From Planctomyces sp. SH-PL62 (GTDB lineage: Bacteria; Planctomycetota; Planctomycetia; Isosphaerales; Isosphaeraceae): 64,000 nucleotides of DNA. Made by a program: the position numbers and the translations under genes. Under the pieces are notes generated by a model, which was not told the DNA's origin, made no database searches, and saw only the letters and a program-made list of their open reading frames with translations. Position 1 is the stretch's first letter. Each line of letters opens with the position of its first letter. Shown here one piece after another: positions 7,210-51,295 of the stretch. The stretch is from assembly GCF_001610895.1 (NCBI RefSeq), contig NZ_CP011273.1:186001-250000 (forward strand), written 5' to 3'.

Positions 7210-8184
7210 ATGACTCCATCGCTGGCACAACTCGCCGAGCTGGTTCGTCAGGCCGAGGCCAAGACCCGGGCGAAGAAGGTTGAGGCCGAGACGCAGCACG
7301 CCGCCGAGCTGTTCCGCACGGCCGAGAAGCGGTCGCGCCACGCGTTGGAGCGGATGAGGACGGCGCGGCCGGCGTGCACCCGGGCGATCGAGCAGGCCGA
7401 CGCCGACGAGCAGCTTTTGAAGGATCTGGTCCGCAAGCTGGCCCAGTTCAAGTCGTCGCTGACCTCGGACGCCGACGCCGAGCAGTTGATCGCAACGTCC
7501 CAGGGTGAGATCGACCGCACTCGCAAGGACGCCAGGGCCGAGCTGGACGTCGTGGGCCGCGAGCTTGACGAGGCCCGCCGCGAGCTGCGCGTCGCCGTCG
7601 ACGCCTATCGTCAGCACCGCCGCGAGCTGGAACGGCTCCAGCCCGAACTCCTCGAACAGTTCGCCGACGCCGACCGCCTCCTCTGGGACGCCGAGAGCCA
7701 CTTCCCCGGCGGCCAGCTCCAGCTCCTGGCCCACGAGATCGAGGCCGGCCTGCACGCCTTCGCCCACCTCGTCAAGCTCGAGCAGTACGCCCGGCTCAAG
7801 GTCTGGATCGGCCGCTTCCGCTACCACCAGGCCGGACCCGATCGCGACTGCGGCAACGTCGAGGAGATGCAGGCCCTCGCGCACAAGGTGTTCCACCAGC
7901 TCAAATGGCTCTCCCGCCAGTATGAGCCCGGCTACATCGAAGCCTTCCGGCAGGACTTCTCCACCGACTGGGGCGCCTACGTCGCCGAGGCCCAGGAGCA
8001 GCTCGTCCAGGCCGTCGAAGCCCAACGCCGCGCCCGCGCCGAGGCCGCCGAACAGTCGAACCACGCCCGCGACCGGATCGCCGCCGAATCCGACGGCCCC
8101 CGCCCCGATGCCGATCGGTCCGAGTCCGAACGCGACCATTTCGATGCTGGCGATCCTGGCGGTCGGAGCGACGAAATCGGCTGA
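7210..8184 (+). CDS. Coiled-coil protein of unknown function
   Basis: 324 residues with no signal peptide or membrane segment. Residues ~1-150 are strongly helical and charged with heptad-like spacing (TRAKKVEAETQHAAELF, RRELRVAVDAYRQHRREL), predicting a long coiled coil. Residues 150-255 hold a more conserved-looking segment (YARLKVWIGRFRYHQ, KVFHQLKWLSRQYEPGY). The last 40 residues are acidic and disordered. I do not recognise the family. It is preceded by an AT-rich promoter-like stretch. The disordered tail could reflect a shifted end of the gene, but no restoring frame is evident. Confidence 0.6.
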   Translation: MTPSLAQLAELVRQAEAKTRAKKVEAETQHAAELFRTAEKRSRHALERMRTARPACTRAIEQADADEQLLKDLVRKLAQFKSSLTSDADAEQLIATSQGEIDRTRKDARAELDVVGRELDEARRELRVAVDAYRQHRRELERLQPELLEQFADADRLLWDAESHFPGGQLQLLAHEIEAGLHAFAHLVKLEQYARLKVWIGRFRYHQAGPDRDCGNVEEMQALAHKVFHQLKWLSRQYEPGYIEAFRQDFSTDWGAYVAEAQEQLVQAVEAQRRARAEAAEQSNHARDRIAAESDGPRPDADRSESERDHFDAGDPGGRSDEIG

Positions 8185-8337
8185 GACCGGGACTCGTTCC
8201 GCCGAGGCCGCGTCACAATCACGCGACGTTTCGTCATCCACATGCTAAGGATTCTCCGTGGCATGCCATGGCTCGGCGACGTGCGTCGAGCTGGATGGGT
8301 GACGGGTCGCGCCGGCGTCGGCGCAAGGGAACGCTAC

Positions 8338-9720
8338 ATGAGCGGTCGCGAGATCACGGCCGACCGGCGCGCGTGGCTGGTGGGCGAGGTGGAAGCCTGG
8401 ACGGCGATGGGCCTTCTCTCCGTCGAGCAGTCGACGGGGATCCTCGGCGTGTACGCGGACGCGCCCCGGCGCGAGGCCGCGAGGCGGGACGACCGGGCGA
8501 GCGCCGCGGTCATGGGGCTGGGGGCCTTGCTGATCGGCCTGGCCGTCTTCACGGCGGTCGCGTTCAACTGGTCGGAGCTGCCGAGGGGGGCGCGGATCGC
8601 CCTGATCTTCCTGACGCTCGCCGGGACCTACGGCGGGGCCTGGCTGCTGCGCTATCGGGCCGCCGCGAGGACGACCTCGAACGTCGTCTGCTTCCTCGGC
8701 TGCCTGTTCTACGGCGCGGCGATCGCGCTGATCGCGCAGATGTTCAACTTCAACGTGGAAGGTCCCGACGGCTACTGGTGGTGGGGGATCGGCGTGCTGC
8801 CGTTCGCCCTGACCCTGGGGACCTGGCCGCTGCACGCCCTGACCGCCGCGACGCTCGCCTATTTCGTCGGCCTGTCCGCGTTCGGGTCGTGGTCCTGGGG
8901 CGGGGGCGGGATGCGAGACCTGGTCGAGCCGGCCTGGAGCGTCCCGATCCTCGCGGGCCTGGGCCTGGCCTGGGCCTACCGCCACAAGTCGCGGAGCGCG
9001 CTGGGCCTGTACGTCGCGCTCGGGACCTGGTGGCTGCTCCTCCAGCCGACGGCCTGGCGGCTCGACGAGGCGCCGATCTACTGGGTCGGGCTGGTGGGAT
9101 CGCTCCTCTTGCTGCTGGCCGAGTGCCATCCGGTCGAGGGGGGCCTGGGGATCCCGTATCGGTTCTTCGGGGTGGTGCTGGTCGGCGGCGTGCTGCTGCC
9201 GCTGAGCACGTACGCGGCCAACTCGGCGATGAGCGGCGAGATCCTGCCGACGCCGCTGGCGATCGAGTCGGCGGCGGCCGTGGTGCTGGCGGCGATCCTC
9301 CTGGTCGTCGCGGCCGAACTCGACCGCCGCCGCGAGGGGGGGGCCGGCTCGCTGGGCCGGAGGCTGCTCGCCGCCCCCGGCCGTTGGTTCCCGGTCCTGA
9401 TGCTGGCCTTCTTCGCGGCCCTGGGCTTCTGGAACGCCGTCGTGGCCGAGCCGATCACGACGACGATCGCGGCCAACGTCGCGATGGCGTCGCTGGCGAT
9501 CTGGCTGACGATCGTCGGCGCCCGCGAGGATCGAGTCCGTCCCTTCGCGGCCGGCGTGGCGTACTTCCTGCTCTGGGCGATCGCCCGCTACATCGACCTG
9601 TTCAGCGGCTTCGGCGGCATGCCGGGCGCGGCCCTGATGTTCCTGGCCTGCGGCGGGGCCCTCGTCGCGGCCTCCTTGCTCTGGCGACGGCTGAAGGAGG
9701 TCCACCATGTCCCTGCCTGA
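8338..9720 (+). CDS. DUF2157 integral membrane protein
   Basis: 460 residues with about ten membrane helices. The N-terminal ~60 residues are cytoplasmic and match the DUF2157 domain (WTAMGLLSVEQSTGILGVYA), followed by VMGLGALLIGLAVFTAVAFN at the first helix. The start at 8338 (MSGREITADR) is preferred; the longer upstream frame adds 32 unlike residues. It overlaps the next gene by 14 bp, and the GAAGGAGG sequence near its end serves as that gene's ribosome binding site. DUF2157 proteins are widespread, of unknown function, and typically sit beside GDYXXLXY proteins, as here. Confidence 0.85.
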   Translation: MSGREITADRRAWLVGEVEAWTAMGLLSVEQSTGILGVYADAPRREAARRDDRASAAVMGLGALLIGLAVFTAVAFNWSELPRGARIALIFLTLAGTYGGAWLLRYRAAARTTSNVVCFLGCLFYGAAIALIAQMFNFNVEGPDGYWWWGIGVLPFALTLGTWPLHALTAATLAYFVGLSAFGSWSWGGGGMRDLVEPAWSVPILAGLGLAWAYRHKSRSALGLYVALGTWWLLLQPTAWRLDEAPIYWVGLVGSLLLLLAECHPVEGGLGIPYRFFGVVLVGGVLLPLSTYAANSAMSGEILPTPLAIESAAAVVLAAILLVVAAELDRRREGGAGSLGRRLLAAPGRWFPVLMLAFFAALGFWNAVVAEPITTTIAANVAMASLAIWLTIVGAREDRVRPFAAGVAYFLLWAIARYIDLFSGFGGMPGAALMFLACGGALVAASLLWRRLKEVHHVPA

Positions 9721-34153: not shown

Positions 34154-35224
34154 TCACGCGCCTGGATAGCGGAAGTGCCAGCCTTCGACGGCGCGGACGG
34201 AGTCGAGGTCTTCGCGGGTGAAGCCGTAGCGGGCGAACCAGGGGGAGCCCTCCTCTCGGACCAGGGCGTCGACCTCGGCGATCCGCTTGCGGGCGACGTC
34301 GGACAGGAACGAGGCGCGCGCGGGGGCGTCGTCCTGGTCGAAGTATTCCTTCCAGAAGGCCCGGCCCCCCAGGACGCCGGAGGCCCCGGCGCGGAGCGCC
34401 ATCTGGACCTGGTCCAGATACTGGTCGTAGTCCACGCCCGCCGAGAGCAAGACCCAGGGACGCTCGGAGACGGCGTCGAGGGCTTGCAGGTTGTCCTCGA
34501 GCTGCTGGTCGCTCTCACGGTCGAGCGTGCCGGGGAACTCGGCCTTGTAAACGTCGCAGAACCGGCTCAGGATGCGGGCGCTCTCGATGACCGTCTCGGC
34601 CTTGCGGTCGAGGAACGAGGCGTCCTTCTTGGTCTCGCCGCCGATCGGGAAGGCGACGGCCTCCAGCAAGAGCAGCAGGTCGTGCTTCTTGCACTCCTCG
34701 TAGACCCGCTCCACGATCGCGAGGTTGGCGTCGGCCGACTCGGTCTCGGTTGGCTCGAACTGGGCCAGGAACTTGATCGCGTCGGCCCCCATCTTCTTGG
34801 CCTTCTCGACGCCCCAGCCGGGCTCGATCGTCGCCAGGGGCGCGCCCTTGGCGCTCATCTCATACTTGGTGCGCTCCAGGCGCAGGAGCAGCCCGGTGTG
34901 GGGAGGGATCGCGCCGGAGGCGACGGCTGACCACGCGCCGTAATAGGGGTCGATCAGGACGCCCGAAGCCGCCGTCGCCAGGCCTCGCATCAGGTCGAGC
35001 TTGGCCTCCACGACCTCCTCGTAAGTCGGCTCGCGGTCCTCCCCGGCGCGTCGCAGGGCCTTGCCGCCCATGTCGATCACCGAGTTGTTCTGGTCGAGCG
35101 CCAGCATGGTGAGGGTGCCGTTCGGGTTGCTGATCCGCTGCAACCCCCGGAGCTTGCCCGGCGTCAGCCCCTTGGCCGCCAGCACGAACGCACCCAGCTT
35201 CTTCGATCCGTCCCCGAACGTCAT
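34154..35224 (-). CDS. Tagatose-1,6-bisphosphate aldolase-like (LacD/YihT family)
   Basis: 356 residues, cytoplasmic. The class I aldolase pattern of the LacD family is visible: LTMLALDQNNSVIDM at the N-terminus, GVLIDPYYGAWSAV, ADAIKFLAQFEPTE with the Schiff-base lysine expected in the D-A-I-K-F strand, FCDVYKAEFPG (second Lys), and VLLSAGVDYDQYL plus GASGVLGGRAFWKE at the phosphate-binding end. Members cleave tagatose-1,6-bisphosphate or sulfofructose-1-phosphate; sequence alone does not separate these. Start at MTFGDGSKKLGAF; an upstream extension is not protein-like. Confidence 0.85.
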   Translation of the reverse strand: MTFGDGSKKLGAFVLAAKGLTPGKLRGLQRISNPNGTLTMLALDQNNSVIDMGGKALRRAGEDREPTYEEVVEAKLDLMRGLATAASGVLIDPYYGAWSAVASGAIPPHTGLLLRLERTKYEMSAKGAPLATIEPGWGVEKAKKMGADAIKFLAQFEPTETESADANLAIVERVYEECKKHDLLLLLEAVAFPIGGETKKDASFLDRKAETVIESARILSRFCDVYKAEFPGTLDRESDQQLEDNLQALDAVSERPWVLLSAGVDYDQYLDQVQMALRAGASGVLGGRAFWKEYFDQDDAPARASFLSDVARKRIAEVDALVREEGSPWFARYGFTREDLDSVRAVEGWHFRYPGA

Positions 35225-35424
35225 GGCCGGCCTTCTTTTCTTCCCGATTCCCGAGCGATCGCCCCGTCCAGGCCCCGTCGCGCGACGAGCCCCACGCCGG
35301 CCCCATTCTAACGGCCCCCCGGGGAGATTGCAGGCGCGGTCCCCTGGCACGGCGCGCCTCGGGGATGCGAGGATGGCGGCGGGACGCCGACCCCAGGTTC
35401 GTCGAAGGGAATGAGGACAGGCCC

Positions 35425-37823: not shown

Positions 37824-38162
37824 GCCCCCAGGGCCGAGGCCGGTTCGGGCCTGCGTCGTAGCGAAGCGAGGAATCGCTCATTGCATCGGGGCCCGATCGG
37901 CCCTATGATGGAGCCTTGTCCTGAACGTGTTCGGGCCCCCTTCACCGGGCGGGCCCGGTTTCGGGACCGTGCGGCCGGATGGATCCACGCCGGACGCAAC
38001 GACTCGCCCCCGGGCCCGCTCGACTGGGGCCGTCGTCCGGGGCGTGATGGAAGAAATCCATCGCTCGAGCCTCTCAATTCCCTTCATGTCCACGCGGCCC
38101 GCGCCGGCGTCCGCCCCCAGAGAGGGATCGCCGCGACGCCCGCGCCTCGGAGTGCCAGGAAC
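37824..38162. other. Intergenic region upstream of fbaB
   Basis: 338 bp with no recognisable gene, hairpin or repeat. The fbaB frame is open far upstream (to 37881), but the extra residues are not protein-like. Confidence 0.4.
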
Positions 38163-39224
38163 ATGGCGTCCGTCCAAGAAGTTCTCGGTGGCGAAGCCGA
38201 CGGCCTGCTGAACTACACCTGCAAGGCGATCCCGAAGGAGACCCTCCACCTCCCCGGTCCCGATTTCGTGGACCGCGTGTTCATTCCCAGCGATCGCAAC
38301 CTGCGGGTTCTGGGAAATCTCTCCTGGATGTTCAACGCCGGCCGCCTCGCCGGCACCGGCTATCTCTCGATCCTCCCGGTCGACCAGGGGATCGAGCACT
38401 CCGGCGGCGCGAGCTTCGCCAAGAACCCGGCGTACTTCGACCCCGAGAACATCGTCAAGCTCGCCCTCGACGGCGGCTGCAACGCCGTCGCCAGCACCTT
38501 CGGCGTGCTGGGGATGGTCGCCCGCAAGTACGCCCACAAGATCCCGTTCATGGTCAAGATCAACCATAACGAGCTCCTGACCTACCCGAACCAGGCCAAC
38601 CAGATCCTGTTCGGCAAGGTCGAGGAGGCGTACGACATGGGCGCCGCCGCCGTCGGCGCCACGATCTACTTCGGCTCCGAGAACAGCGGCCGACAGATCG
38701 TCGAGATCGCCGAGGCGTTCTACCGGGCCCACGAGCTCGGCATGGCGACGGTCCTCTGGTGCTACCTGCGGAACAACGCCTTCAAGTCCGACAAGGACTA
38801 CCATGTCGCCGCCGACCTCACCGGCCAGGCCAACCACCTGGGCGTGACCATCGAGGCCGACATCATCAAGCAGAAGCTCCCCGAGAACAACGGCGGCTTC
38901 AAGGCCCTGAACATGGGCGGCTCCAGCTACGGCAAGCTCGACGAGCGGATGTACACGGAGTTGTGCTCCGACCACCCGATCGACCTCTGCCGCTATCAGG
39001 TCGCCAACTGCTACATGGGCCGCGCCGGGCTGATCAACTCGGGTGGGGCCAGCGGCAAGAACGACTTCGCCGAGGCCGTCAAGACGGCCGTCATCAATAA
39101 GCGCGCCGGCGGCACCGGCCTGATCTCGGGCCGCAAGGCCTTCCAGCGGCCGATGGCCGAGGGCGTCAAGCTCCTCAACACCATCCAGGACGTCTACCTC
39201 GACAAGTCGATCACGATCGCCTGA
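38163..39224 (+). CDS. fbaB: Class I fructose-bisphosphate aldolase (FbaB type)
   Basis: 353 residues, the length of E. coli FbaB (350). Motifs specific for that family: [49 protein letters not shown] with the Schiff-base lysine at residue 236, and [18 protein letters not shown]. It cleaves fructose-1,6-bisphosphate to dihydroxyacetone phosphate and glyceraldehyde-3-phosphate in the cytoplasm. Start at [10 protein letters not shown] with AGGA upstream. It is followed by a candidate structured RNA and terminator. Confidence 0.95.
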
Positions 39225-40206: not shown

Positions 40207-40254
40207 TGACGTCGAAGGTCTGCCTTCCCATCCGATCCTCCAGAGGCTCGCCGC

Positions 40255-40743
40255 TCACTCGGACATCGCGACGACCGGGCCGGCCATCGATTCGAGGAGG
40301 TTGAAGACGAGATACCAGGCGTCGACCCCGGCCGGGCCCGCCTGGGCGGTCAGGTCGGTCGTCTGGACGGCGTCGGCGTCGGAGCGGATCAGGACGAGCT
40401 GGCCCTCGTCGATGTGGACGACGGCGGTGGCCGTGTGCGAGACGCCGTCGGGCTGCGAGGCCTCCTCACGCAGGGCGATCCCCACGGCGATCAGGATCGC
40501 GGCGGCCTGCGCCGCCAGCACGACGCCGATCGCCGCCCAGCGGCGGGCTCGGGAGGGTGCCGGCTTCGCCATGACCAGGGTCGGGACGTGGGGGCGGTCG
40601 CCGATCGCGGCCGACTCGTCGACGGCGGCGTTCACGGCCGTCCAGACGCGGTCCCAGGCTTCGGCGGAGGGCGCGGGGGGGCGGGTCGCCCGCCACAGGC
40701 GTTCGAGCCGATCCGACTCGCGATTCTCGGCGTCTCCTCGCAT
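40255..40743 (-). CDS. Probable anti-sigma factor, membrane-anchored
   Basis: 162 residues. The N-terminal ~65 residues are soluble and charged (ESDRLERLWRATRPPAPSAE). One membrane helix follows (AAIGVVLAAQAAAILIAVGI, residues ~70-90), then a ~65-residue extracytoplasmic domain (HTATAVVHIDEGQLVLIRSD). It starts 24 bp after the ECF sigma factor gene on the same strand, which is the usual place for the cognate anti-sigma factor. The HxxxCxxC zinc motif of ZAS anti-sigma factors is absent. Role inferred from position and topology. Confidence 0.7.
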   Translation of the reverse strand: MRGDAENRESDRLERLWRATRPPAPSAEAWDRVWTAVNAAVDESAAIGDRPHVPTLVMAKPAPSRARRWAAIGVVLAAQAAAILIAVGIALREEASQPDGVSHTATAVVHIDEGQLVLIRSDADAVQTTDLTAQAGPAGVDAWYLVFNLLESMAGPVVAMSE

Positions 40744-40767
40744 GGTCTGCCATCCTTCTTGGGTCGA

Positions 40768-41346
40768 TCAGCCGAGGTCCTTGAGGCGTTCCCAATCCAG
40801 CACGGCCTGGAGCTTGCGCCGGGCGGCGTTGATCCGGCTCATGACGGTTCCGATCGGGACGTCCTGCGATTCGGCGATCTCCTTGTAACTCAATCCCAGC
40901 TCGGCGAAGAGGACGAAGGTCGCCCGGAGGGTCGGCGACAGGTTCTCCAGGGCCTCGTCGAGCGCCCGGCGAAGGTCCTGGCGGCGGAGCCCCCGCGCCG
41001 GGTCGTCGTCCGGGGAGAGGCTCGTCGGCTCCCCCTCAAGGGTCACGTACTTCCGCCGTTTTCTCCGCCTTCCCTGGTCGAGTGCCGTATTGACGACGAT
41101 CCGAAGCAGCCAGAACCGGAATCCCCCCCGGCCGTCGAATTCCGACAGTCGGGCGAAGGCTTTCATCAACGATTCCTGCACCACATCGAGCGCGTCGTGC
41201 TCGTCCCCCAGCAGTCGGTACGCCGCGCGGTACGCCTCGTCCCGATGCCGCAGGAACAGTTCCTCGCGGGCCTGGGGGTCGCGTCCGAGCGCCCGCCGGA
41301 CCAGCGATTCATCGGTGATGGATGCGGTCGTCGGGGCGTCGAGCAT
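40768..41346 (-). CDS. ECF RNA polymerase sigma factor
   Basis: 192 residues. Region 2: LFLRHRDEAYRAAYRLLGDE, DALDVVQESLMKAFARLSEF and FRFWLLRIVVNTALDQGRRR. Region 4: LSPTLRATFVLFAELGLSYK, EIAESQDVPIGTVMSRINAA and RRKL, a clear helix-turn-helix. It directs RNA polymerase to alternative promoters in response to an envelope or other signal, probably released from the membrane protein encoded next. The following lipoprotein may be a target. Confidence 0.95.
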   Translation of the reverse strand: MLDAPTTASITDESLVRRALGRDPQAREELFLRHRDEAYRAAYRLLGDEHDALDVVQESLMKAFARLSEFDGRGGFRFWLLRIVVNTALDQGRRRKRRKYVTLEGEPTSLSPDDDPARGLRRQDLRRALDEALENLSPTLRATFVLFAELGLSYKEIAESQDVPIGTVMSRINAARRKLQAVLDWERLKDLG

Positions 41347-41479
41347 ACGATCTCCTACCCAGACCAGACGAACCCGGCCCGTCTCCTATTCGATCTCCGG
41401 GGCCATCGGTTACACTGGACGGCCGTAATCGTCCGCCGCAGCCATTGTAGCGTCACGTCACGCGAGGAGCGCCGCCGCC

Positions 41480-41995
41480 GTGCCCGTCGAGGTGTTGATC
41501 CCGGAGAGCGCGCTTCACGACCGGCTCCGCGAGTTGGGTCGGGAGGTCGCCCGCGACTACGCCGGCAAGCCGCTGACGATCGTCGCCGTGCTGACCGGGA
41601 GCCTGATCGCCCTGGCCGACCTGATCCGCGAGGTCGACGTCCCCCACCGCATCGGCCTGGTCCACGCCAGCAGCTACCGGGGGGCCACGACGACCGCCTC
41701 GACCCTGATCATCAACGAGACGCTCGCCCCCGACGTGGCCGACCGCGACGTCCTGCTGCTCGACGACATCCTCGACACCGGCCAGACCCTCGCGGCGCTC
41801 GTCGACCACCTGATCGCGCGGGGGGCGCGAAGCGTCAAGACGGCGGTGCTGCTCCGCAAGATCGGCCGCCAGACGACGCCGATCGAGCCCGACTACTGCG
41901 GCTTCCCGATCCCCGACGCCTTCGTGGTCGGCTACGGGCTCGACTTCGACGACGACTACCGCCACCTGCCCTTCGTCGGCATCCTCAAGGACTGA
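41480..41995 (+). CDS. hpt: Hypoxanthine phosphoribosyltransferase
   Basis: 171 residues with a GTG start. VAVLTGSLIALADLIREV, VHASSYRGATTTAS and VLLLDDILDTGQTLAALVDH (PRPP-binding motif) are in the proper order for a purine phosphoribosyltransferase; DYCGFPIPDAFVVGYGLDFD and RHLPFVG are the HPRT C-terminal signature. It salvages hypoxanthine/guanine to nucleotides with PRPP. Nine bp separate it from the next gene, so hpt probably heads an operon with two glycosyltransferases. Confidence 0.93.
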   Translation: MPVEVLIPESALHDRLRELGREVARDYAGKPLTIVAVLTGSLIALADLIREVDVPHRIGLVHASSYRGATTTASTLIINETLAPDVADRDVLLLDDILDTGQTLAALVDHLIARGARSVKTAVLLRKIGRQTTPIEPDYCGFPIPDAFVVGYGLDFDDDYRHLPFVGILKD

Positions 41996-42004
41996 CCGCC
42001 CGAC

Positions 42005-43180
42005 GTGACCCCTCCCACGCCCCCCCTCAAGCTGGCCCTCGTCTCCCGACGCTACCCGCCCCTCATCGGCGGCGCCGAGCGCGTGCTCGCGTACCTGGCC
42101 GAGGCCCTGGCGCGCGAGGGGGCCGACGTCTCGGTGCTGACCTCCGCCGTGGGCGAGGCCGCCGGACTCCCGACCCGAGAGGCGCTGGACTACTCGAAAT
42201 CACGAGGCGGGGGGCGGCTGACGATCCACCGGCTGGAGACCTCGCCGCTGCGGTTCTTCGGGACCTGGCTCTACATGCGGAACCTCCGGCGATGGCTGGC
42301 GGCGAACCCCGTCGATCTGGCCTACGTCTCGATGCTCAAGCACGACGCCTACGTCGCCGTGGGCGCCGGGCGCGAGCGCGGCTTCCCGGTCGTCCTGCGT
42401 CCCGAGGGCGCCGGCGACACCGGCGACGTCGCCTGGCAGGCCCGGGGGAACTTCGGCGCGCGGATCGCCCGTCGCACCAGGGACGCCGACGCCTTCGTCG
42501 CCATCTCGAAGGCCGTCCACGACGAGCTGGCCGGGGCCGGATACGACGCGGCGAAGATCCACGACCTGCCCAACGGCGTCCCGATCCCCGCCCGTCCCTG
42601 GCAGCGCCGCAAGGGCTGGCAAGAGGCCCCGCACGCGATGTTCGTCGGCCGGCTGGCCCCCGAGAAGGGGCTGACCACGCTGGTCCGGGCGTGGCCCGCC
42701 GTCCGGTCGAGCTTCCCGAACGCCCGGCTGACGCTCGTGGGCGAAGGCCCGGAACGGCCGGCCCTCGAACGTGCGGCGCGCGACCTGGGCCTCCCCGCCG
42801 GGGCGGTCTCGCTCCCGGGCGCGACCGACGACGTCGAGGCCGCGCTGCGGGCGGCCGACCTGTTCGTGCTGCCGTCGACCGAGGAGGGGATGAGCATCGC
42901 CCTGCTGGAGGCGATGGCGATCGGCGTGCCGGTCGTCGCCACGGCGATCCCGGGCAACCGCCGCCTGATCGCCGACTTCAAGCACGGCCGGCTCGCCCCC
43001 GCGCGCGACGTCGACGCCCTCGCCCGGACGATCGTCGAGCAGTGGACGACCTTCGATCGGGCCTTCCACATGAGCCGCGCGGCGAGGGGCCGCGTCGAGC
43101 AGCAGTTCTCGATCCGGGCCGTCGCCCGCGGCCACCTGCAACTCTTCCAGGAATTGATCGCCCGCGAACGGTCGGGTTGA
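42005..43180 (+). CDS. GT4-family glycosyltransferase
   Basis: 391 residues, GTG start. GT-B fold: KLALVSRRYPPLIGGAERVL at the N-terminus (glycine-rich loop), FVAISKAVHDELAGAGYDAA in the middle, AMFVGRLAPEKGLTTLVRAW at the start of the nucleotide-sugar domain, and LFVLPSTEEGMSIALLEAMA with the E-x7-E motif of GT4. Cytoplasmic and probably membrane-associated; makes a glycoside from a nucleotide sugar, substrate unknown. It lies 16 bp before a second GT4 gene. Confidence 0.92.
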   Translation: MTPPTPPLKLALVSRRYPPLIGGAERVLAYLAEALAREGADVSVLTSAVGEAAGLPTREALDYSKSRGGGRLTIHRLETSPLRFFGTWLYMRNLRRWLAANPVDLAYVSMLKHDAYVAVGAGRERGFPVVLRPEGAGDTGDVAWQARGNFGARIARRTRDADAFVAISKAVHDELAGAGYDAAKIHDLPNGVPIPARPWQRRKGWQEAPHAMFVGRLAPEKGLTTLVRAWPAVRSSFPNARLTLVGEGPERPALERAARDLGLPAGAVSLPGATDDVEAALRAADLFVLPSTEEGMSIALLEAMAIGVPVVATAIPGNRRLIADFKHGRLAPARDVDALARTIVEQWTTFDRAFHMSRAARGRVEQQFSIRAVARGHLQLFQELIARERSG

Positions 43181-43196
43181 AACGGGGTCTTCCGCC

Positions 43197-44312
43197 GTGC
43201 TCAAGGTCTTGCAACTGATCCCGACGCTCGACCGCTCGGGCGCCGAGAAGCAGATGGTGATGCTCTCCAGGGGGCTCCCCCGCGACCGCTTCCAGGTCGA
43301 GGCGGCGGTGCTCACCCGGACGGGCCCGCTCGAGGCCGAGCTGGCCGCCGCCGGCGTGCCGGTGACGTCGATCGCCAAGCGGTTCAAGGTCGACCCGTTC
43401 GCCCTCCGCCGCCTGACGAGGTTCCTGAAGGCGGGCAAGTTCGACGTGGTCCAGACCTGGATCTTCGCCGCCAACGCCTACGGCCGGATCGCCGCCGGGC
43501 GGGCGGGCGTCCCGGTGGTGGTCACGGCGGAGATGGCCGTCGACCTCTGGAAAGGGCGTCTGGAGAAGGCCGTCGACCGCAGGCTGGCGACGGCCTGCGA
43601 CAAGCTCGTCGGCAACTCGAACGCCGTCGTCGACTACTACCGCAAGCTCGGCGTCCCCGAGGACCGGCTGGCGATGATCTACTCGGGGGTCGCCGACGAG
43701 CCGCCGCCGGCCGTCGATCCCGCGGCCGTCCGCGTCGAGATCGGATTCCCCCCCGACGCCAAGCTCGCCCTGTTCGTCGGCCGGCTCGCCCCCCAGAAGC
43801 GGGTGCTGGACCTCCTGCGGGTGCTCGACCTGCTGCAACACGTCCAGCCCGACCTCCGCACCGCGATCGTCGGCGACGGCCCGCTGCGAGCCGAGCTGGA
43901 GAAGCGCGCCGGGCAGTACGAGCTGACCGACAAGGTCCGCTTCCTCGGCCACCGCGACGACGTACCCCGCCTCATGGCCGCCGCCGACGTCGTCGTCCTG
44001 CCGAGCGAGTACGAGGGGCTGCCGAACGTGGTGCTGGAGGCCATGATGCAGGCGAAGCCCGTCGTCGCGACCGCCGCGCCCGGCACGACCGAGGTGGTCG
44101 TCGACGGCGTGACCGGCCTCCTGGCACCCATCGGCGATCTCCCCCTGATCGCCCGCGCCCTTCGCGACCTCGTCCGCGACCCCCGCCGCGCCCGGGCCCT
44201 CGGCGCCGCCGGCCGCGAACGCGTCCTGGCCGACTTTCGCGCCGACGCCATGGTCGCCCACTTCGCCGACCTCTACGAAAACCTCGCCGCCGCCAAGCGC
44301 CCCCCCGCGTGA
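43197..44312 (+). CDS. GT4-family glycosyltransferase
   Basis: 371 residues, GTG start. VLQLIPTLDRSGAEKQMVML opens the protein, then KLVGNSNAVVDYYRKLGVPE, LALFVGRLAPQKRVLDLLRV and VVVLPSEYEGLPNVVLEAMM, the GT4 E-x7-E motif. Related to, but clearly different from, the preceding glycosyltransferase. The pair probably adds consecutive sugars to a surface glycan or lipid-linked oligosaccharide (inference from pairing). Confidence 0.92.
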   Translation: MLKVLQLIPTLDRSGAEKQMVMLSRGLPRDRFQVEAAVLTRTGPLEAELAAAGVPVTSIAKRFKVDPFALRRLTRFLKAGKFDVVQTWIFAANAYGRIAAGRAGVPVVVTAEMAVDLWKGRLEKAVDRRLATACDKLVGNSNAVVDYYRKLGVPEDRLAMIYSGVADEPPPAVDPAAVRVEIGFPPDAKLALFVGRLAPQKRVLDLLRVLDLLQHVQPDLRTAIVGDGPLRAELEKRAGQYELTDKVRFLGHRDDVPRLMAAADVVVLPSEYEGLPNVVLEAMMQAKPVVATAAPGTTEVVVDGVTGLLAPIGDLPLIARALRDLVRDPRRARALGAAGRERVLADFRADAMVAHFADLYENLAAAKRPPA

Positions 44313-44465: not shown

Positions 44466-47400
44466 TCAGCGTCCGGTGAAGCCCTTGCGCTCGGCCGGGT
44501 TGGTGTAGATTCGCGTGCGGGGCTTGCGCGGCTTGTCGGCGATCTTGTTGCCGTTGGAGGGCTTGACGATGCCGGGTCGGGTGCCGGTCCGGTCGTCCAC
44601 GATCTGCCAGTTCTCCGGGGCGATGACGTCGACCGAGCCGAGCTTGGGATTGAACCGGACGGCCGCGGCGCGGCCCGGCGAGGCGGACTGGCCGGGGGCC
44701 CCCTGGCGGACGACCTGCACCGGGCGGCCGTCGAGGCCGTTGGCGAAGACCAGGTCGTTGAGCGAGTCATACGTGATGACATCGGCTTGCAGGGCGGTGT
44801 CCTGGGCACGGACGTAGGCGTTGTCCCAGGCCTTCAGGAAGTTCCGACCGTTCGAGGTTTTGGCGGAACCGGCCGGCGGGGGCTCGTTGATGACGCGGAG
44901 CATCTCCGAGGTCAGGAACGCGGCATCGTTCGGCAGGCGGTCGTAGTCGAACCGGACCGCCTCGTTGGCGACGTTCCCCCGGGCCGTCTCGACGGCCCCG
45001 AAGAACTCGGCCCAACGCTGCTCGTCGACGTCGTCCTGGGCGCCGGTGCCGAACCGACCCTTCATCTCGTCGGCGAACCGGATCTGGGTCAGGACCAGCG
45101 GCGGCAGCTCGGGCCTGGCTCCGGCGGCCCCGGCCCGGCGGGGGGCGTCGGGGCTGACGGCGATCTGCTCCTTGACGCCCGAGGCCGCGTCGTCGTCCTC
45201 GCCGGGGTTGTACGCGGTGGGGCGGACGACCGGCCGGGCGGCGACGGAGGCTCCGAATTCCGGGCTCGCCTCCTTGGTCGGGTCGCCCTTGCGGTCGTAG
45301 AGGAAGACCTCGCCGGGGCCCGGCGCCCGGAACGTGCCGGTGCGGCGGTCGTACAGGAGCGAGCCGGCCTCCATCCGCTGCTGGCTGATCAGCAGCGGGA
45401 AGTCCGGGTGGACCTTCCGAGCGATGGCCACGGCCCGCGACTTCGGCGTCCCCACGACCTCGATCATCGCCAGGTCGGGTCGGGACTCGGGCTCGGCCTC
45501 GTCGCCGGCCTCGGCCGGGGCCTTGGCGGCGGTCCGGCCGCTGAGCTTGCCGGCGTCGACCAGCGGGATCGGCTTGTCGGTGTAGACGGTGATCGAATCC
45601 TCGCCGTGGAGCAGCGAGTCCTCCATCTGGGCGTGGGCCCGGCCCAGGAACTTGATCTTGGCGGCCGGCCGCTTGAGCGGGTCGTGCGAGATCCCCTCGA
45701 AGGTCATCAGCTTGGTCCAGGTGATGACGATCGGGACCTTGTTCGACAGGGTCTTGCCGCCGCGCTTGCGGGGCTTGGCCGGGTCGGCCGGCGGCTGGGC
45801 CGCTTCGAGGCCCTCGGCCGAGCGGTCGGTGAACAGGGCGCGGTCGGTGAGCTGGGTGAGCTTGCCCTCGCCGTAGGCCCACGCCTGGTCGGCCTTCTGG
45901 TCGACGCCGATGGTGTCGGCGACGATCGTCATCTCCTCGGTGGAGACGCGGGCCTTGGGGGCCTTCTTGGGATCGATCGCGCGACCCTTGGCGGAGTGCT
46001 GGTCGTGGTGGTAGAGGTCGAAGACGACCTGGCCCGCCGCCTGGTTGCGAAGGACGAGCACCTCGCCCTCCGCGTCGGTGCCGACGGTCTTGCCCGGGCC
46101 GGGCTCCTGGTGGAGCTGCACGCCCCCCCGCAATTCGACGTCGCGAAGCTCATAGGCCGGCTCGGCGGCCGTCCCGGCGGTCGCGCCGGGCTGGGGGGCG
46201 GGGGCGCCGACGATCACGACGGCCTGGGCTCGCTCGGCCTTGGCGGACATCTTCGGTCCGGTCGGCTTGGTCGCGGCACCCTGCGCGGGGACCGGCGTGA
46301 GGTCGGGCGCGACGGCTCCGCCGCCGTCGCCGGCGGCCTTGGCGTCCGCGGCCGGCGCGGGCTTCGCGACCGGGTTCGGGTTCGTCGTCAGCGGCGGGGA
46401 AGCGGCCACGGTCCCGGCTTCGAAGTCCACGTCGAGCCGTTCTCGCAGGTGCAAGTCGCGGCTGGGATCGACGAGGTGGACGTCCTTGACGGCGAGGAGT
46501 CGCCGGATGCTGGGGAGGGCCGGCTTCGGCGCGGCGGCGGGGTCGGGCTCCGTGTAGGCGGCGGGGACGACCTCGCGGCCTTCCCGCGTGAGCTGGGCCT
46601 TCTTCTCGTCCGGGTTCAGCCAGACGACGATGCGGTCGGCCGCGTCGAGCGAGGCGCCCCGGGCGCGGTCTTCCACGCGGGGCGAGCCCTTGAGCACCAG
46701 GACTCGGCCCGAGGCGCGGTCGGCCTGCGGGGCCTCGTTCTGGACCCAGAGCTGCTCGCGCCAGACGGCCGTGCGGGAGGGCGGCACGTCGCGAGGGGGC
46801 TCGTTCTCGCCCAGCGCGGGGCGGGTCTCCAGCAGGCCCGGCCCGTTGGCGACGAGCGCCGCGTTGTTGGGGTCGCCGTCGTCGGTGAGGGTGGCGTCGG
46901 AGCACCAGACGTGGGTGACCGACTGGAGCCGGGCGGGGGCGCCGGCGGGGGCCGCCGCGGCGAGGTCCCGCTTCTCAAGCCAGAGTTTCTTGGGGCCGCC
47001 GCCGTTGAAGACGGTCGTGTTCTTGCCGGAGGCGGGCTCCTTGTAATGCAGCAGCTCCACGCAGAGGATCTTGACCCCCTGCCCCGGCATCTGGAGCCAG
47101 ACCGCGTGGCCGCTGGCCTTGACCCGCCGCAGGGTCAGTCCGCCGAACGCGCTTCCCTTGGCGGCCGTCGTCACCTCGGTCTCGTCTCCAGCCTTGGCCT
47201 GGGCCTCGCCCGACTTCTTCTCGCCGGGGAGGAGGGTGAGGTGGAGGGTGTCGCAGGTGAGCTGGTCGGGCAGGTCCGCGAGCTTGCCGCGGCGGACGAC
47301 GACGTTGTTGCGGAACTCCACGTAGGTCGGCTCGGGGGGGACCGGGGGCCGACCGGGGGCGCGGGGACCGGGCGCGGCAGGGCGACGATGAGCGGGCCGT

Positions 47401-48307
47401 CGCACTGGACGTCGAGCGGGATCGCCTCGTTCGGGTCCCTGGCGGCCTTGCCGTTCGACTTCGGCCGAGCCTGGGCCGCGACGACGCCGCCGTCGGCGGC
47501 CTGCTTAGCGTCCAGGTCGGGGAGCATGCCGGTGCGGCCGACGTCGGCGAACGTGGTGCGGACGTTCTTGAAGAGAGTGAGCTGCTGGGCGCCGTCGAAG
47601 CCGGTGGCGCGGCCGCCGGGCTGGCTCGCCGCGGACTTGGGGCGGAGCTGGATCTCCAGGCCGGTGCCGGTGACGCGGACGTCGCGATCGACGACGACGA
47701 CGTCGGACTTGGTGCGGATGACCGGGGAGACCCCGTCGTCCTCGTACTCGACCTCGGTGAGCGGGCCGATGTGCAGGTCGTCGGTCGGGTCGTCCGGGGT
47801 CCCTCGGTCGTCGCGGATCATGACGTTCCGCTCCAGCCGGGCGTAGCGCACGGTCAGCGGCTCGCCGTCGCCCTTGGGACTGAGGCCGAACGGCTTGTTG
47901 AAGTCGATGACCGCGGACTCGCTGGTCATGGTCCGGGTGCTCCCCGCCTTGGGAGACCCGAGCACGACGGCGGCCGGCTTCACCTCGATCCGCTTGCCGT
48001 CGAACTTCACGCCGCCGCTCTCGGTGGGGCGGGAGAACTCGGCCGCGAAGAGGATCACCCCCTTCTCCGGGCTGACGTAGCGGAGGAGGTCGTCGGAGTT
48101 GGTCCAGCTGTCGGGGCCGAACACGCGCTCCGCGGTCTGCTTGACCAGCGTCTTGGTCTCGGAGTCGTGGACCGTGAACTCCATCTGGTCGACTTGGTGG
48201 GTCGACCGGAGGCGTGCGACCACGAGGTCGAACGCCTGGACGTACGCCAGGTGGGCCGCCGTCAGGAGGCTCAGGACCGTCGCCAGCTTGAAGAGTTTCT
48301 TAAGCAC
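44466..48307 (-). CDS. Giant LptC/LptA-like protein, frameshifted
   Basis: Two frames make one ~1280-residue protein. The N-terminus (LKKLFKLATVLSLLTAAHLA) is a membrane anchor, followed by MEFTVHDSETKTLVKQTAER, as in LptC-like proteins. After the break come several OstA/LptA-like beta repeats: YVEFRNNVVVRRGKLADL, MTIVADTIGVDQKADQAWAY, LQADVITYDSLNDLVFANGL. The break is in a run of seven C (plus-strand G, 47334-47340), and adding one C gives a single frame. The start at 48307 (GTG) gives the anchor directly. It follows kdsD and kdsC, as lptC and lptA do in E. coli. A role in moving lipid A or a related glycolipid across the periplasm is inferred. Confidence 0.75.
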
Positions 48308-48419
48308 GAATCGACATTCCGTAACGTCGGCGGTTACCCGGTCCACGCGGTCGACGACCACCTCGGAAGCGTCGGGGGGACGATCCCCGCGCGATGAGGG
48401 CGGCCCCGCCCAAGCCTGC

Positions 48420-48986
48420 TCACGTCGCTGGCGAAAGATAGCTGCCGCAAGCCCCGTGCCACAGCCCCTGGGCTTTCAGAATGACCTCGACGACTTCGCG
48501 GACGGCGCCGTTTCCTCCGGCTGCGACGGTCGTGAGGTGGGCCGACTCGCGGACCTCGGCCACGGCGTCGGCCGGACAGGCGGCGAGCCCGACGGCCCGG
48601 AGCACCGGCAGGTCGATCAGGTCGTCGCCGACGTAGCAGACCTGCTCCGCCGTCGCCCCCGTCTCCGCCAGCAGCGCCCGGAAGGCCTCGCCCTTGTCGG
48701 CGATCCCCTGGACGACTCGTTGAATCTTGAGCTCGGCCGCCCGCCGCTCGACGACCGCGGCGCGACGGCCGGAGAGGATGGCCGAGGACTTGCCGACCTT
48801 GTGCCAGAGCGCGAACGCCAGGCCGTCGCGGACGTGGAAGTTCTTCGACTCGACGCCGGCGTCGTCGACGATGATCCGGCCGTCGGTGAGGACGCCGTCG
48901 ACGTCCACCGCCAGCACCTGGATCGCCTCGCAACGCGCCTGGAGGTCGGCCGCGACGCCGGCCGTGGGGCTTCCCGGGGTCGTCAT
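48420..48986 (-). CDS. kdsC: 3-deoxy-D-manno-octulosonate 8-phosphate phosphatase
   Basis: 188 residues, HAD fold. VLAVDVDGVLTDGRIIVDDA carries the DxD nucleophile motif typical of KdsC, KSSAILSGRRAAVVERRAAE is motif II, and CYVGDDLIDLPVLRAVGLAA motif IV. It removes phosphate from Kdo-8-phosphate to give Kdo. The end of the upstream kdsD gene (GAGGAG TGA) supplies the ribosome binding site; 5 bp separate the genes. Confidence 0.93.
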   Translation of the reverse strand: MTTPGSPTAGVAADLQARCEAIQVLAVDVDGVLTDGRIIVDDAGVESKNFHVRDGLAFALWHKVGKSSAILSGRRAAVVERRAAELKIQRVVQGIADKGEAFRALLAETGATAEQVCYVGDDLIDLPVLRAVGLAACPADAVAEVRESAHLTTVAAGGNGAVREVVEVILKAQGLWHGACGSYLSPAT

Positions 48987-48991
48987 CCGCG

Positions 48992-50014
48992 TCACTCCTC
49001 GAAGTCTTCGGGGGGCGTCCCGATCAGGTCGGTCACGTCGATCAGGCCCGCCAGCCGGCCGTCGCCGTCGACGACGGGAAGCTCGCTGATCTTGCGGCCC
49101 TTCATCAGCTCGACCGCCTCGCCCAGCATGGAGCCGACCGTGGTGCGGAACGGGTTCGCCGTCATCACCTCGCCGATCGGCCGGTCCAGCTCGGACTCCC
49201 GGCGCTTCTCGAACAGCCGCACGAGGTCGCTGTCGGTGAAGATGCCCAGCAGCCGCTCCTGGTCGTCCCGGACCAGCACGGCGCCGGAGCGGCGGCGGGG
49301 GCCGGCGAGCCGGACGAAGACCTGGCGGACGGTCTCCTCGGGCCTCGCCGTGCGGACGTCGCGGCCGGTCCGCATCACGTCCTCGACCCGCGTCAGCTTC
49401 CGCCCGAGGTTCCCCGCCGGGTGGTAGAGGGCGAAGTCCTCCGGGGTGAAGTCGCGCATCCGGGAGACCAGCAGGGCCAGGGCGTCGCCGACGGCCATCA
49501 TCGCCGTCGTGCTGGCCGAAGGCGCCAGGCCCAGCGGGCAGGCCTCGGCGATGGGCCCCATCGCGATGCAGACGTCGGCCGACCGGCCCAGCGAACTGGC
49601 CGCGCGTTCGGTGACGGCGATCAGGCCGGCGTCGATCCGGCGGATCGAGGGGAGGAGCCGCAGCACCTCCTCGGTCTCGCCGCTCTGCGAGAAGGCGACG
49701 ACGACGTCGCCGGGGCGGATCCGCCCCAGGTCGCCGTGGACGGCCTCGGCCGGGTGCAGCGGGTAGGCCCGCGTGCCGGTCGACGCGAACGTCGCGGCCG
49801 TCTTCTGCCCCACCAGCCCCGCCTTCCCCATGCCGGTGACGATCACGCCCCCCTGGCAGTGGTAGACCAGCCGCGCCGCCCGCACGATCGAGCCGTCGAG
49901 CCGCTCGCGGACGCCGGCCAGCGCCGCGGCCTCGTCCCGAAGGACCCTGCGGGCGAACGCCAGGCCATCGGCCTCCGTCTCCGGGCTCGCCGTCGCTTCC
50001 GAGATCGTCGCCAT
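48992..50014 (-). CDS. kdsD: Arabinose-5-phosphate isomerase (SIS + CBS)
   Basis: 340 residues. SIS domain in residues ~45-180 (VIVTGMGKAGLVGQKTAATF, HPAEAVHGDLGRI, VVAFSQSGETEEVLRLLPSI), then two CBS domains (VEDVMRTGRDVRTARPEETV and IGEVMTANPFRTTVGSMLGE). This is the KdsD/KpsF/GutQ architecture. The enzyme interconverts ribulose-5-phosphate and arabinose-5-phosphate, the first step to Kdo. The choice of KdsD over GutQ rests on the kdsC neighbour. Start at MATISEATAS. Confidence 0.95.
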   Translation of the reverse strand: MATISEATASPETEADGLAFARRVLRDEAAALAGVRERLDGSIVRAARLVYHCQGGVIVTGMGKAGLVGQKTAATFASTGTRAYPLHPAEAVHGDLGRIRPGDVVVAFSQSGETEEVLRLLPSIRRIDAGLIAVTERAASSLGRSADVCIAMGPIAEACPLGLAPSASTTAMMAVGDALALLVSRMRDFTPEDFALYHPAGNLGRKLTRVEDVMRTGRDVRTARPEETVRQVFVRLAGPRRRSGAVLVRDDQERLLGIFTDSDLVRLFEKRRESELDRPIGEVMTANPFRTTVGSMLGEAVELMKGRKISELPVVDGDGRLAGLIDVTDLIGTPPEDFEE

Positions 50015-50575: not shown

Positions 50576-51295
50576 ATGAGCACGCTTCAGCAGGCCTGGC
50601 GACTCGGACTTGGACTCGGGTTCGCGCTCGTCGCGGGCGTCGCCTTCGGGCAGGAGGCGAAGGAGGCGGAGCCGAGCCGGGAGACGCCGGGGGCCGAGGC
50701 TCCCGCGACGAAGGACGGCGCCGAGGGCGAGAAGCCGAAGAAGCCGAAGCTGGAGCAGGCGACGTTCGGCGGCGGCTGCTTCTGGTGCACCGAGGCGGTC
50801 TTCGAGCGGATCCCGGGCGTGAAGTCGGTCGTCTCGGGCTACTCGGGCGGGAACGTGGCGAACCCGACGTATGAGATGATCTCCACCGGCCTGACCGGCC
50901 ACGCGGAGGTGATCCAGATCACCTACGACCCGAGCGTCATCTCGTTCGAGAAGCTCCTGGAGTATTTCTGGATCGCCCACGACCCGACCACCGTGAACTC
51001 CCAGGGGCCCGACCACGGCACGCAGTACCGCTCGATCATCCTCTACCACAATGAGGACCAGAAGCGGCTGGCCGAGCAGGCGAAGCACGACCTGAACGCC
51101 AAACGCGCCCGCAAGTCGCCGGTGGTCACCCAGATCGTCCCCTTCGAAGCCTTCTACCCGGCCGAGGAGTACCACCAGGACTTCGCCCGCAACAACCCCT
51201 ACCACGGCTACGTCGAGACCTACATCACCCCCAAGATGTACAAGCTCAAGGCCAAGCTGAAGGCCGAGTCGAAGAAGAAGGCCGAATCGAACTGA
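50576..51295 (+). CDS. msrA: Exported peptide-methionine (S)-S-oxide reductase
   Basis: 239 residues. Signal peptide in residues 1-25 (LGLGLGFALVAGVAFGQ), a ~35-residue Glu/Lys-rich linker, then the MsrA domain: EQATFGGGCFWCTEAVFERI with the catalytic Cys in GCFWC, YSGGNVANPTYEMISTGLTG, HAEVIQITYDP and DHGTQYRS. C-terminal EYHQDFARNNPYHGY. It reduces methionine-S-sulfoxide in proteins; export suggests repair of periplasmic or outer proteins. The C-terminal ~20 residues are Lys-rich. Single gene. Confidence 0.93.
   Translation: MSTLQQAWRLGLGLGFALVAGVAFGQEAKEAEPSRETPGAEAPATKDGAEGEKPKKPKLEQATFGGGCFWCTEAVFERIPGVKSVVSGYSGGNVANPTYEMISTGLTGHAEVIQITYDPSVISFEKLLEYFWIAHDPTTVNSQGPDHGTQYRSIILYHNEDQKRLAEQAKHDLNAKRARKSPVVTQIVPFEAFYPAEEYHQDFARNNPYHGYVETYITPKMYKLKAKLKAESKKKAESN

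Follow-up and report, generated by a model that had tools for sequence, protein, structure and literature searches.

How might lipopolysaccharide (LPS) cross the periplasm in a planctomycete whose genes kdsD and kdsC are followed by one giant gene, at the place where Escherichia coli has lptC and lptA? The question is raised by a 64,000-nt stretch of Planctomyces sp. SH-PL62 (GCF_001610895.1, NZ_CP011273.1 positions 186,001-250,000), hereafter the window, in whose coordinates all positions are given unless prefixed by C1. On its minus strand lie kdsD, kdsC and then a coding region of ~1,280 codons ending at 44466, here called the giant. A previous inspection of the bare sequence (the sequence-only reading) had noted an E. 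coli-like order of kdsD, kdsC and a gene resembling those for LPS transport (Lpt); profile matches and comparison with our yardstick, the E. coli K-12 order kdsD-kdsC-lptC-lptA-lptB, bear this out. Our best explanation, which as a whole we consider probable, is that kdsD and kdsC provide two steps in the supply of 3-deoxy-D-manno-octulosonic acid (Kdo) and that the giant encoded behind them spans the periplasm in one piece, with Kdo-lipid A/LPS as its cargo.

The main features are given below; Paludisphaera soli (Isosphaeraceae, Planctomycetia) is the nearest named relative found, ORF denotes an open reading frame, and U1-U5 are the repeat units described further on.

48992-50014, minus strand: kdsD, arabinose-5-phosphate isomerase, 340 amino acids (Pfam SIS and two CBS stretches)
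48420-48986, minus strand: kdsC, Kdo-8-phosphate phosphatase of the HAD family, 188 amino acids (TIGR01670, 149 bits, cut-off 107)
47348-48307, minus strand: N-terminal part of the giant, 320 codons, with anchor and LptC-like head (within ORF 48361-47171)
48203-48307, minus strand: N-terminal hydrophobic helix, predicted inner-membrane anchor (low-confidence helix at residues 2-35 of the P. soli model; hydropathy)
47501-48220, minus strand: putative LptC-like head domain (mapping and profile similarity to U1-U5)
47334-47350, minus strand: frame break in a C-rich, proline-coding linker (DNA alignment, in which six relatives have one base more)
44466-47339, minus strand: C-terminal part of the giant, 957 amino acids plus stop, with LptA/OstA-like units (within ORF 47405-44466; class-wide profile match)

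KdsD exceeded the cut-off of the NCBIfam KpsF/GutQ subfamily model TIGR00393 (261 bits, cut-off 204) and scored 282 bits with its equivalog model, under the cut-off of 505; KdsC likewise stayed below the cut-off of its equivalog model (162 bits, cut-off 208).

Internal repeats and relationship to Lpt families

The sequence-only reading had also proposed several OstA-like repeats, and five mutually similar internal units were indeed found. Their boundaries were set by eye on the giant of locus L031 (head, residues 30-270; units, 283-490, 490-625, 660-815, 845-1005 and 1060-1245) and map to the window as follows; the PF03968 (LptA/LptD_N) cut-off is 20.4 bits throughout.

46791-47428, minus strand: U1, LptA-like, crossing the frame break (repeats; L097 counterpart, PF03968 29.0 bits; P. 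soli fold match)
46386-46793, minus strand: U2, LptA-like, with the weakest Pfam support (repeats; PF03968 14.0 bits in L109, under the cut-off)
46269-46379, minus strand: Pro/Ala-rich linker between U2 and U3 (alignment A1 and mapping)
45822-46268, minus strand: U3, LptA-like (repeats; hhalign, A5 profile against E. coli LptA, at L031 residues 664-816, E 8e-4, probability 24.5%; PF03968 17.1 bits in L106, under the cut-off)
45282-45758, minus strand: U4, LptA-like (repeats; PF03968 25.1 bits in L109)
44556-45113, minus strand: U5, LptA-like, C-terminal (repeats; PF03968 25.9 bits in L102 and 22.0 in L106; TIGR03002 E 0.034)

When profiles of the units were compared with each other, all ten pairs gave E values of 1.7e-8 to 4.7e-4, ahead of all 144 controls (36 reversed profiles, best 0.011; 108 column-shuffled, best 0.033), which establishes that repeated units exist. 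Insert columns were removed in this controlled comparison and kept in the one preceding it. The head matched the units with E values of 3.3e-4 to 0.016, four of the five ahead of every control; judged by these profiles, it resembles the units weakly, as LptC resembles LptA. Scanned unit by unit in four hand-picked giants, 10 of 20 segments matched PF03968 at E <= 1 and four exceeded its cut-off.

In the window protein, the sole hint of an Lpt family was a match to the LptA model TIGR03002 (E 0.034, residues 856-899). Among 31 giants from across the class (alignment A5), PF03968 matched 19 (best E 4e-12) and TIGR03002 matched 22 at E <= 1 (best 7.9e-10), while the LptC models PF06835 and TIGR04409 matched 8 (best E 4.5e-4) and 14 (best E 8.2e-5), respectively; the LptC rows seen in single scans were all under the cut-off. 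Besides the Lpt families, no family matched more than one of the 31 giants, an outcome that agrees with the LptC/OstA relationship for which the sequence-only reading had suggested a profile search. Of nine distant giants hand-picked for single scans (like the four above, from the 19 A5 loci beyond the nearest relatives), seven scored above the gathering score of PF03968 (21.2-46.8 bits), with the best stretches in single giants at residues 281-465, 654-855 and 978-1069. The singly seen LptC matches fell in the first 270 residues, bar one weak row in U1 of L109; the LptA matches of Isosphaeraceae sit near the C terminus of the giant. The best solved-structure match by sequence was LptA for both giant profiles, weakly so (E 0.013 and 0.014). 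On profile comparison, then, the giant is related to the Lpt families, weakly in the window protein and clearly in distant relatives, and an LptC-like head is suggested by weak sequence matches. An anchor followed by an LptC-like start had been read from the sequence: the N-terminal hydrophobic segment is present (best 19-residue hydropathy 1.6), but the head is as weakly indicated as just described.

Fold of the N-terminal half

Structure prediction, another check proposed at the outset, gave a moderate model of the N-terminal half, with an Lpt beta-jellyroll fold, but no usable model of the half containing U3-U5. The AlphaFold model of P. soli residues 1-660 had a mean predicted local distance difference test (pLDDT) score of 53.6, with 199 residues at 70 or above, mostly at ~210-550. 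Foldseek with this N-half placed LptA (2r19) in its top row (probability 1.00, E 0.016). With VIA-align, the first 15 of 50 listed rows were all Lpt proteins (LptD, LptA, LptH and LptC; Z 12.8-10.2), aligned over model residues ~175-552, ahead of the next row at Z 8.3. The best match was LptD (4q35, Z 12.8, 175 residues), followed by LptA (best Z 11.7) and LptC (best Z 11.2), the LptC structure 6mit aligning at model residues 195-451, mostly past the head. The model thus supports a beta-jellyroll (beta-taco) fold for the P. soli homologue between residues ~175 and ~552.

Conservation of the locus in Planctomycetia

The C part was matched in 20 of the 30 nearest genomes, SH-PL62 included, and a profile of 16 Isosphaeraceae sequences matched the giant in 82 of 98 Planctomycetia genomes. 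This count is a lower bound, because a broader, 31-sequence profile recovered the giant in G019, one of the 16 genomes missed earlier. The sequence-only reading had asked for the same locus in other Isosphaeraceae, and synteny was found: kdsD precedes the giant, on its strand, in 19/20 nearest loci (exception L049) and in 19/20 loci from elsewhere in the class (exception L115, cut by a contig end), 38/40 in total. kdsC was detectable in 17 of the 19 nearest loci with kdsD and in 11 of the 20 more distant ones. Since the giant is matched in 82/98 genomes and its locus is syntenic, its recurrence is beyond chance. Alignment A1 contains 16 of the 20 nearest loci (omitting L042 and L050, at contig ends, L048, of another family, and L049, a shorter second copy); A5 contains 12 of these 20 and 19 of the 20 more distant loci of the class (omitting L032, L034, L039 and L047 for redundancy, L042, L048, L049 and L050, and L115 at a contig end).

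Between kdsD and the giant, no kdsC was detected in L096-L101, L110 and L112. L049 (Isosphaeraceae genome G014) holds on its minus strand, at ~7860-9203, a second giant-like ORF of 804 codons stop to stop, with matches to the head and U1; no kdsD occurs in the fetched stretch, and the same genome has a full giant.

The frame break in the window

A single polypeptide of ~1280 residues, as originally described, is what the family has but not what the window assembly gives: ORF 48361-47171 and ORF 47405-44466 occupy different frames, the downstream frame being -1 relative to the upstream one, with a C7 run at 47334-47340. In all 18 other Isosphaeraceae genomes with a contig spanning the break point, a single frame crosses it. 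Seventeen of these open frames measure 1196-1541 codons between stops, counting one that reaches the edge of its contig; the last genome has a 485-codon piece where its contig stops.

Homopolymer C runs are frequent sites of sequencing error, and the break in the window most likely reflects such an error or else a recent mutation. That the gene is truly broken in SH-PL62 by a one-base deletion, the bridge being lost or made as two proteins, we consider unlikely. The assembly does show two frames, and the neighbours with matches in four congeners (among them kdsD, kdsC, msrA and ORFs 34157-35284 and 38160-39221) are each single-frame, so errors are not everywhere in it. Yet the C part would begin without a hydrophobic segment (judged by hydropathy only), the break sits in C5 and C7 runs where P. 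soli has C8, and an old loss is disfavoured because the C part still reads through 957 codons and shares 81% identity with P. soli. A joining of both ORFs in SH-PL62 through programmed -1 frameshifting, with the C7 run as its site, would fit the run and the offset between the frames, but with one frame in 18/18 relatives it is the least credible account of the break, improbable in the extreme; no slippery site is conserved, since at the same place the six aligned relatives differ, with C8 in P. soli, C6 in two and no run of six or more in three. We also discarded a reading of the two ORFs as separate natural genes, given the lack of a hydrophobic segment at the start of the second and the single frame in all 18 relatives.

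One stop was seen inside the read-through matches to the giant in G010, G054, G034, G025, G019 and G033.

The rest of the Lpt machinery

The partners that such a bridge would need, lptB, lptF/G and lptD, for which the sequence-only reading had proposed a genome search, are all present. LptF and LptG are encoded in tandem at C1:4953322-4955697 and were found in 30/30 genomes; LptB lies at C1:1497942-1498652 (331 bits, cut-off 240) and was found in 29/30. LptD, at C1:1524044-1526803 (E 2.5e-103), was found in 30/30 genomes by a profile of three planctomycete LptDs. An apparent absence of LptD from Isosphaeraceae, suggested by PF04453 (3/30 genomes, none of them Isosphaeraceae), was overturned by this result, and the shortfall of PF04453 is thus one of sensitivity. 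In SH-PL62, the LptD missed by PF04453 lies in a 1362-codon open frame ~25 kb from lptB. PF04413, which we take to be the N-domain of Kdo transferases, scored 203 bits in the same genome and is present in 30/30 genomes.

The sequence-only reading named two results that would refute it, a predicted structure lacking an LptA/LptC fold and complete separate lptA and lptC genes elsewhere in the genome. Neither came up: the N-half model shows the Lpt fold, and profile searches, which are weak for divergent proteins, turned up neither LptA nor LptC as a separate protein in SH-PL62. Across the 30 genomes, TIGR03002 gave 30 rows at E <= 1; assigned by position against the giant and LptD matches, 19 of them belonged to the giant and 8 to LptD, which leaves 3 in other ORFs (106-373 codons, E 0.16-0.56). 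The only such row in SH-PL62 was the giant itself (E 0.585), and the giant profiles found no second copy in this genome.

A proposed one-piece bridge and its alternatives

LPS is described as passing along the path LptF-LptC-LptA-LptD in the accessible text of PMC10094684, and by analogy we propose a route through the giant. Its N-terminal helix would anchor it in the inner membrane beside LptB2FG, and the LptC-like head would receive LPS from LptF. Five covalently linked LptA-like beta-jellyroll units, broken by the Pro/Ala-rich linker, would form a continuous hydrophobic groove, the last of them (U5) docking on the N-terminal jellyroll of LptD. The giant would in this way stand in for LptC plus the LptA oligomer. 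We see an even chance that the number of units is fixed covalently, unit duplication having led from an LptC-plus-few-units form (350-670 codons, as in other parts of the phylum) to a six-domain ruler of the distance between the membranes that would make free LptA unnecessary.

Besides the two frames in the assembly, several results weigh against the one-piece bridge. Against Pfam at E <= 10, the window protein gave nothing but one unrelated weak row. The TIGR03002 cut-off (71.7 bits) was exceeded in 0/30 genomes, and we therefore do not class the giant as an LptA orthologue; at E <= 1 this model also fires in control genomes that have no outer membrane. Alignment by hhalign of the giant profiles with single E. 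coli LptA was weak (E 0.006 and 8e-4, probabilities 6.2% and 24.5%) and with single E. coli LptC not significant. Foldseek with the N-half returned no row at E <= 0.001, the pLDDT of the head was mostly <50 in the P. soli model, and the AlphaFold model of the 957-residue C part reached only pLDDT 34, so that U3-U5 are LptA-like by sequence. The Pfam models for LptC and LptD_N matched nothing at E <= 1 in the SH-PL62 genome, the giant itself being missed as well. Finally, tblastn with the E. coli and own LptB, which recovered both positive controls, found no LptB-like ATPase at E <= 1e-5 in the window or the 40 giant loci. A motif scan for LptB in the window and the 40 loci, which also found nothing, was discarded because the same motif misses the genome's own LptB.

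A rival view makes the giant LptC plus part of the bridge, with LptD reached only through a further protein, either a strongly diverged separate LptA or another giant chain: the failure of Pfam LptC and LptD_N to detect the SH-PL62 giant itself means that profile searches are weak here, and the number of LptA units needed by the known bridge is stated to be unknown in the part of PMC10094684 available. We nevertheless think a partial bridge quite improbable, given that 27/30 TIGR03002 rows at E <= 1 fall in the giant or LptD and that the giant profiles reveal no second copy. More doubtful still is a long Lpt-fold bridge whose cargo is some lipid different from Kdo-lipid A, a possibility raised for the glycolipids of Borrelia. 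An Lpt system is described in an organism without LPS in the accessible portion of PMC10353723, but kdsD and/or kdsC are linked in most fetched loci and PF04413 was matched in 30/30 genomes, both of which speak against another cargo.

Around the locus, a tandem pair of genes for glycosyltransferases (Pfam Glycos_transf_1 / Glyco_transf_4) at 42005-44312 on the opposite strand point to the end of the giant, and a peptide methionine sulfoxide reductase gene (Pfam) at 50576-51295 is divergent from kdsD. A possible second frame break at 40253-41719 was rejected, the opposite-strand ORF being better conserved there (87% vs 67%).

Length variation outside the class

In an even sample of the phylum, 32/119 genomes matched the 31-sequence profile, 6 inside Planctomycetia and 26 outside; the outside-class counts come from this one sample. 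Outside the class, kdsC and/or kdsD stand beside the gene in 16/19 fetched loci, and ORF lengths range from 350 codons (L211) and 445 (L210) through 652-667 (L205-L208) up to 953-1183. These graded lengths, which come from partial matches, suggest a possible series in unit number. The shorter relatives beside kdsC (L205-L208, L210 and L211) are possibly an LptC-like head with fewer units.

Comparison with known systems

The giant shares with E. coli LptC and LptA the position after kdsC, a predicted N-terminal anchor, the family profiles, the fold of the N-half model and the companion LptB/F/G/D. It differs from them in being one chain of a putative LptC-like head and five LptA-like units, whereas E. 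coli has two small proteins, one of which oligomerises, and lptB lies elsewhere in the planctomycete genome. The N-terminal jellyroll of LptD is the best fold match of the N-half, and PF03968 covers both, but a separate LptD gene exists in the same genome as the giant. Long OstA-like proteins of Bacteroidota are longer than E. coli LptA and have several OstA repeats; they are shorter than the giant, and to our knowledge no anchored LptC-LptA chain encoded behind kdsC has been described among them. The Lpt orthologues of Borrelia are, as far as the available text of PMC10353723 goes, likewise a divergent Lpt system in a non-proteobacterium, but there LptC and LptA are separate genes.

An LPS-type outer membrane with LptD was proposed for planctomycetes in 2012, the word LptA being absent from the accessible part of that paper (PMC3422733), and a 2022 survey calls the planctomycete Lpt system largely reduced in its available text (PMC8871954). 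We found no description of a one-chain LptC-LptA in the literature searched, of which subscription papers were mostly not part, and such a bridge is best read as a new variant of the Lpt system. A one-chain LptC-LptA would account for part of the apparent reduction of the planctomycete Lpt system. In addition, the text available of PMC10094684 calls the copy number of LptA in the bridge unknown, and a chain whose unit number is fixed, but whose length differs between lineages, would let unit number be compared with the spacing of the membranes.

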